Source of the DNA: Polaromonas sp.
Lineage (GTDB): Bacteria; Pseudomonadota; Gammaproteobacteria; Burkholderiales; Burkholderiaceae_C
Direction of reading: 5' to 3'
DNA length: 64,000 nucleotides
Assembly: GCA_030655515.1 (NCBI GenBank)
Contig: JAURVI010000005.1
Location: forward strand, 1-64,000
Positions 31,348 through 34,680 of the stretch are shown in pieces. The notes under the pieces were generated by a model, which worked only from the letters and a program-made list of their open reading frames with translations, had not been told where the DNA came from and did not search any database. A program made the position numbers and the translations under genes. Every line of letters begins with the position of its first letter. Positions within the stretch are counted from its first letter, which is position 1.

Positions 31348-32403
31348 TCAGCCCAATAGCCGGCGTGCCATGCGGATGGCCGCGATCAGGCTGGCGGCAT
31401 CGGCCTGGCCGCTGCCAGCGATGTCAAAGGCGGTGCCGTGGTCCGGGCTGGTGCGCACCAGCGGCAGGCCCAGCGTGACATTCACGCCCTGCGCCAGCCC
31501 CAGGTATTTGACCGGGATCAGTCCCTGGTCGTGGTACATCGCCACCACCACGTCGAACTCGCCGGCCTGCCCGGCCCTGGCTCTGGCCCGCATGAAGACG
31601 GTGTCCGGTGCAAAGGGGCCGCTCACGTCCAGGCCTTCGGCGCGGGCCTTCGCTATCGCTGGCGCGATGATGTCCAGCTCTTCCCGGCCAAACCGGCCAC
31701 CTTCGCCGGCATGCGGGTTCAGGCCGGCCACCGCAATTCGCGGCGGGGAGCCGGAGACCCCGCGCACCGACTGGTGTGCAATCTGCAAGGTCTGCAGCAC
31801 GCGCTCAAACGTCACGGCGTTGATCGCATCACGCAAGGACAGGTGGATGCTGACCAGCACGGTCTTGAGTTCATCGTTGGCCAGCATCATGCGCACCGGC
31901 AGCTCGGACACCGCCTTGCCGAGAAAAGCCGCCGCTTCGGCCTGCAGCATTTCGGTGTGGCCGGGGTAGCGCGCAAAAACGGCACCAGCCGCGCCGGCAG
32001 CGGCCAGTGCTTCCTTGTGAATCGGCGCCGTCACCATCGCGGCGACTTCGCCCGACAGGGCCGCCCGGGCCGCCCAGACAATGCAGTCGGCCGCCGCTTT
32101 GCCGGCCAAAGCACTGACCTGCCCATACGGCACCAGCGCGGGTAACTCACATTTTTGCAGCACCGGAATACAGCGCGGCGGCACCGCTTGCCAATCGGCG
32201 GCGGCGGCGAGCTGGGCCACCGGCAGAGACGGCGATGCCCCCCGAACCAGGGAAGTCAGGGCGGCAGCGCGGCGCAGCGTGGCGACATCACCGACCACCA
32301 CGCAGCCCGCCATCTCTGCGGGTGACTCGCAAAAAGCCTTGGCAATGATTTCGGGGCCGATACCCGCAGCATCGCCCATGGTAATGAGAAGGGGTTTGCT
32401 CAT
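31348..32403 (-). CDS. pdxA: 4-hydroxythreonine-4-phosphate dehydrogenase
   Basis: ITMGDAAGIGPEIIAKAF, GLNPHAGEGGRFGREE. Confidence 0.96.
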   Translation of the reverse strand: MSKPLLITMGDAAGIGPEIIAKAFCESPAEMAGCVVVGDVATLRRAAALTSLVRGASPSLPVAQLAAAADWQAVPPRCIPVLQKCELPALVPYGQVSALAGKAAADCIVWAARAALSGEVAAMVTAPIHKEALAAAGAAGAVFARYPGHTEMLQAEAAAFLGKAVSELPVRMMLANDELKTVLVSIHLSLRDAINAVTFERVLQTLQIAHQSVRGVSGSPPRIAVAGLNPHAGEGGRFGREELDIIAPAIAKARAEGLDVSGPFAPDTVFMRARARAGQAGEFDVVVAMYHDQGLIPVKYLGLAQGVNVTLGLPLVRTSPDHGTAFDIAGSGQADAASLIAAIRMARRLLG

Positions 32404-33206
32404 GCCGGGTTGTCGATATCAATGAATTCATGCGTCAGCCCGAACTGCGCGGCCACATGCGCCGCCACGGCGGGCGCACCGTATCGCTCGGACGCATGAT
32501 GGCCGCAGGCGATGAAAGCCACGCCCATTTCGCGGGCGTAATGCGCCTGCGGCTCGGAGATTTCGCCGGTGATGAAGGCATCGGCCCCGGCGGCGATGGC
32601 GGCTTCAAAGTAGCCCTGCGCGCCGCCGCTGCACCATGCTATGTTTTTAATGGCTTTCTGCGCATGCCCGACAAGGACAACCGGCCGGTTCAATGCATTT
32701 TTTACATGCTCGGCCAGGCTCTCGGCGCTGTCAAGGCTGGAACCGGCGGGGCCGTCCGCAACGCCGCCGTGGCTGCCCAGAAAACCCAGGTTGTTCTCGC
32801 CGAAGTAGCGGTCCGCACGCAACCCGAGCCGGCGGCCGAGCTGCGCGTTGTTGCCCAGCTCGGGGTGGGCATCGAGCGGCAGATGGTAGGCATAGAGGTT
32901 GATGTCATGCGCCAGCAGCAGCGCCAGACGCTGCTTCATCCAGCCGACGACAGGGCCATTGTTGCGACCGTCCCAGCCGCGCCAGAACAGCCCATGGTGA
33001 ACAAAAATGGCGTCGGCCTTCGCCGCGACGGCCGCTTCAATCAGCGCCAGACTGGCCGTGACGCCGGAGACGATTTTTCGCACCTCGGCCTTGCCTTCGA
33101 CCTGCAGGCCGTTCGGCCCATGGTCCTTGAAGCGCTCCGGCTGCAGCAACTGATCGAAAGCGGCCAGCAGCAGCGCACGCGGCGCGACCGGCCAGGCGGG
33201 ACTCAA
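32400..33206 (-). CDS. Nif3-like dinuclear metal center protein
   Basis: PNGLQVEGKAEVRKIVSGVTASLALIEAAV, FVHHGLFWRG, GGAQGYFEAAIAAGADAFITGE; TTG start. Confidence 0.92.
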   Translation of the reverse strand: MSPAWPVAPRALLLAAFDQLLQPERFKDHGPNGLQVEGKAEVRKIVSGVTASLALIEAAVAAKADAIFVHHGLFWRGWDGRNNGPVVGWMKQRLALLLAHDINLYAYHLPLDAHPELGNNAQLGRRLGLRADRYFGENNLGFLGSHGGVADGPAGSSLDSAESLAEHVKNALNRPVVLVGHAQKAIKNIAWCSGGAQGYFEAAIAAGADAFITGEISEPQAHYAREMGVAFIACGHHASERYGAPAVAAHVAAQFGLTHEFIDIDNPA

Positions 33207-33280
33207 GGCAGGACTCCCTCGACCGGCAGATAACGCTCGCCGGTGTTGCCTATCGTGGCGAGGACGCTGGAGGCTTTCAT
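33203..33280 (-). pseudogene. 25-aa ORF MKASSVLATIGNTGERYLPVEGVLP, candidate internal-deletion remnant of a cysteine synthase gene
   Basis: ATG with upstream AAGGA; first 13 aa resemble a cysteine synthase N-terminus (..TIGNTP..), last 12 resemble its C-terminus (..GERYL..); TGA overlaps the Nif3-like TTG start (TTGA). Confidence 0.5.
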
Positions 33281-33519
33281 GACATGTTCCTTGTGGGGAG
33301 TTTGTCGCCCGCTCAACACGGGCGGCTGGTTCTGCAAATTATCGCCCTTCCCCGGAAGACCCTTGCACCGGTACGCGGGCCTGCCGTCCGGCTTGCGGCA
33401 ACATGCGCGAATTGGGCGAAAATCGGGCCTGTTGGTTATTGATCATTGCCGATCCGGCCCCATTTCCTGTGCGGACTGTCATTGACTGTCTTTGCCTGCT
33501 GCTTCACCCTGGAACCCCC

Positions 33520-34680
<1,161 letters not shown>

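Follow-up and report, generated by a model that had tools for sequence, protein, structure and literature searches.

The window analysed here, a 64,000-nucleotide stretch of DNA from a Polaromonas sp., contains on its minus strand a gene for a Nif3-like protein and, immediately upstream of it, a 25-codon ORF at positions 33203-33280 (nucleotides ATGAAAGCCTCCAGCGTCCTCGCCACGATAGGCAACACCGGCGAGCGTTATCTGCCGGTCGAGGGAGTCCTGCCTTGA), encoding the peptide MKASSVLATIGNTGERYLPVEGVLP followed by a stop. The features of the locus are as follows.

32400..33206, minus strand: Nif3-like gene (YbgI_SA1388), 268 aa, intact, with a TTG start overlapping the stop of the putative remnant
33203..33280, minus strand: putative cysK remnant, cysK codons 1-12/13 followed in frame by the ~12 final codons and the stop
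33214..33220, minus strand: GAGGGAG, Shine-Dalgarno-like sequence of nif3, within the putative remnant's Glu-Gly-Val codons
33242..33246, minus strand: predicted deletion junction, microhomology ACAC(C), 846 bp missing compared with relatives
33284..33292, minus strand: ribosome site of the putative remnant around AAGGA, probably inherited from cysK
33338..33343, minus strand: GATAAT, resembling a -10 element and located 63 nt 5' of the putative remnant's ATG

The small ORF had been noticed in a preliminary description as having a good ribosome binding site and lying upstream of a Nif3-like gene, and this is confirmed, with AAGGA found 5' of the ATG at 33280. Its frame extends upstream to a TTG at 33337 (44 aa); despite this longer open frame, relatives conserve the ATG at 33280 as the start. 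At its other end, GAGGGAG lies 7 nt before the nif3 TTG, and this TTG overlaps the TGA stop within the sequence CCTTGA (4-nt TTGA overlap), both as previously described. Directly beyond the ORF, a putative divergent gene for an HtrA/DegP-like serine protease, judged by motif, occupies positions 33403-34680 on the plus strand, and many relatives, whether or not they have cysK, apparently carry the same neighbor upstream of nif3.

The same description proposed that the ORF derives from a gene of the CysK/CysM family, of which an intact copy should be found at this locus in relatives. Using the CysK adjoining nif3 in a relative (G017) as a query on 87 Polaromonas genomes, we found a clear orthologue (at least 79% identity; one partial) in 60 of them, the window's genome being among the 27 without one. 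An intact cysK of 307-308 codons is present directly upstream of nif3 in 26 of the 87 genomes, and all 26 orthologues of at least 86% identity occupy this position on the same strand as nif3, while four more distant ones that were examined (81-83%) have no nif3 within a 1.5 kb flank. The relatives' gene scores above the TIGR01139 cut-off, indicating that it is CysK. CysM is rejected as the source on this ground, and also because the window's genome has an intact CysM elsewhere. No remnant was observed upstream of nif3 in the 20 genomes checked that lack cysK and possess the nif3 locus. Across the genus, cysK is found beside nif3 in one part of Polaromonas and elsewhere in other members, and is missing from 27 of the 87 genomes, several complete ones included, a distribution that points to repeated moves or losses.

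We placed the window's Nif3 in a tree of 63 Nif3 proteins, which represents one short protein and has many weak forks, and it is nested among 14 genomes with the cysK-nif3 arrangement (SH-aLRT of 94). The nearest Nif3 is that of L123 (90% identity), and the AU test does not reject a single clade uniting all the cysK-adjacent sequences with the window's (p-AU 0.69). Because the window's Nif3 lies within the cysK-nif3 group, its lineage most likely descends from an ancestor that carried cysK at this locus.

The 78 nt of the ORF were compared with each intact relative gene, one junction being allowed. The best fits, obtained with L114 and G017, show 8 mismatches over the 78 nt, while the same fit on about 20,000 random 78-nt stretches of the window gave a minimum of 36 mismatches and a mean of 54. 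Each half thus matches one end of the relatives' cysK, in agreement with the initial reading of the halves as the N- and C-termini of a cysteine synthase. All but two of the 26 relative genes are exactly 924 nt long, so that the missing stretch measures 846 bp (282 codons, in frame, compared with L114 and G017). At the junction, the 5' site of relatives is GGCAACAC followed by NCC and their 3' site is TACGACACCGG, and the join in the window's genome reads GGCAACACCGGCGAGCGTTAT. The breakpoints can lie anywhere within ACAC (4 bp) for L114 and G017, or within 5 bp where the relatives' 5' site is ACACC; the junction is therefore located at a short homology near the NT/DT-G codons, where it had been predicted. 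Compared with the CysK of G017, the N-terminal part is identical (13 of 13 residues) and the C-terminal part matches at 10 of 12 residues (GERYLPVEGVLP vs GERYLSVEGFLP). Compared with L114, six codon changes are synonymous and two are non-synonymous (S to P and F to V), the latter affecting residues invariant in 24 aligned intact relatives, as would be expected once the deletion had released the C-terminus from constraint.

Taken as sequence comparison, these results make it very probable that the 25-codon ORF is the scar left by an in-frame deletion in cysK, the gene for cysteine synthase A (TIGR01139; PALP family, PF00291). Its ends correspond to those of CysK at the same locus in relatives; unlike CysK, it lacks 282 of the 307 codons and with them the entire PLP-binding catalytic core, so that CysK activity is impossible. 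The 25-aa peptide itself has no family match. In the ancestor, nif3 directly followed cysK, and comparison with relatives shows that an internal deletion of 846 bp at the ACAC(C) repeat took out 282 codons in frame, between the Ile-Gly-Asn-Thr codons near the start of cysK and the Tyr-Asp-Thr-Gly codons near its end, likely through replication slippage or end-joining at the microhomology. The deletion spared the promoter region and the ribosome site as well as the start codon and the final codons. The 25 codons would probably be translated, ribosomes then initiating or re-initiating at the overlapping nif3 TTG, so that the downstream gene would not have been silenced by the deletion.

What remains of cysteine synthesis was then considered, the description having called for a check of other cysK or cysM genes. 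No second cysK was found in the window's assembly (a draft of 2.65 Mb in 52 contigs, 84.8% complete), and because of this draft state it could lack a second cysK, or a strain variant with the gene intact. CysM is intact (NF008735 and TIGR01138 over cut-off), two CysE are present, both over cut-off, and a threonine ammonia-lyase is the only other PALP-family match. Cysteine synthesis presumably goes on via CysE and CysM. In several complete genomes of the genus, likewise without a cysK orthologue, the only matches are CysM-like and of lower identity; cysK thus looks dispensable in the genus.

As for expression, the GATAAT of the window is matched by an ATAAT within 130 nt upstream of cysK in 22 of the 26 relatives. 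A separate alignment of upstream regions, in mixed orientation, told little beyond L114 and L115. A scan with the sigma-70 consensus did not find a full promoter. An amino-acid-responsive, attenuator-type leader peptide was considered and rejected: the peptide has no Cys codon and no terminator-like hairpin was found at 33150-33560. Judged from its anatomy, which is compatible with it, translational coupling between the remnant and nif3 is plausible. Coupling is not obligatory in the clade, since a spacer of 66-247 bp separates cysK from nif3 in 11 of the 26 relatives, the nearest one (L123) among them. The spacers of L004, L005, L007, L117, L122, L126 and others are G+C-rich and repeat-like (..CCCCCACGCTTGTCGCTGCGCGTAC.. 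and ..GCGGCCCGGCGAAGCCGGTTCCGCGGCCCCGGCTG..), and apparently represent an inserted intergenic repeat that parts the two genes.

The preliminary description suggested that translational coupling may have preserved the remnant. On this view, the scar of cysK would in addition have been maintained by selection, serving as a leader through which translation is coupled to the weak nif3 TTG, a possibility that we hold to be doubtful. It would fit the in-frame junction, the retention of AAGGA and ATG, the TTGA overlap, and the predicted pairing of GAGGGAG with the anti-Shine-Dalgarno sequence (-8.0 kcal/mol, toward the strong end of the relatives' range of -3.3 to -9.8), as well as the 15 of 26 relatives in which the projected nif3 start overlaps the cysK stop or is at most 15 bp away. 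However, the codon phase of the repeats alone makes an in-frame join likely, spacers exist in the other relatives, and the scar occurs in one genome only. In view of the spacers and of this codon phase, we make no claim that selection kept the remnant.

A variant of the cysK-scar explanation, also compatible with it and in our view rather improbable, is a deletion in two steps via an internal Ser-Gly-Asn-Thr-Gly motif: a first join would have linked GGCAACAC (8 bp) with an internal GGCAACACCGGCG, and a second one ACACCGGCG (9 bp) with the C-terminal site, each of them in frame. In L114 the repeat words sit where this route needs them and in the correct phase (positions 30 and 219; 223 and 880), and both repeats exceed the 4-5 bp available to a single step, but two events are required and no intermediate appears among the matches in the 87 genomes.

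An assembly error, with the contig falsely fusing the two ends of an intact cysK, is very unlikely. The assembly is a draft of many contigs and the join is unique to it, being absent from the other 86 Polaromonas genomes and from 400 further genomes sampled across the family. Nevertheless, the 4-5 bp shared by the two ends are much shorter than the words that assemblers use, an intact functional gene would hardly bear the two substitutions at invariant positions (S to P, F to V), and the bin contains no intact copy of cysK elsewhere. The changes at two otherwise invariant codons, together with a shared sequence far too small to deceive an assembler, speak for a deletion that is real and not brand-new. 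Finally, a chance ORF with accidental likeness to cysK, for which nothing but its short length speaks, is refuted by 8 mismatches against a random minimum of 36 and by the presence of an intact cysK in this position in relatives.

In-frame, non-polar knock-out scars are well known from engineered strains, for instance those of the Keio collection of E. coli. Like them, the remnant retains the start and last codons, keeps the frame and leaves the downstream gene translatable; unlike them, it would be the product of a natural event at a 4-5 bp microhomology, without a recombinase scar. That it is a full natural counterpart, kept and tuned as a leader delivering ribosomes to the nif3 TTG, is a tentative idea that we do not favor. 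Pseudogenes arising through internal deletion at short repeats also occur in bacterial genomes, and the remnant resembles them as a microhomology deletion of a dispensable gene whose paralogue (cysM) is retained, while it differs in being very short, in still being a good open frame and in overlapping the next gene. We found no paper on a cysK-nif3 remnant locus or on such remnants. The remnant clearly adds a new case to a familiar class of events, and as gene loss it is ordinary. Compared with relatives, it provides a clean case of a redundant gene leaving an operon while the next gene stays unbroken. It also illustrates the origin of some tiny unannotated ORFs, with the caution that an ORF of 20-30 codons, even one with a good ribosome site, may be the scar of a deletion and not a new small protein.
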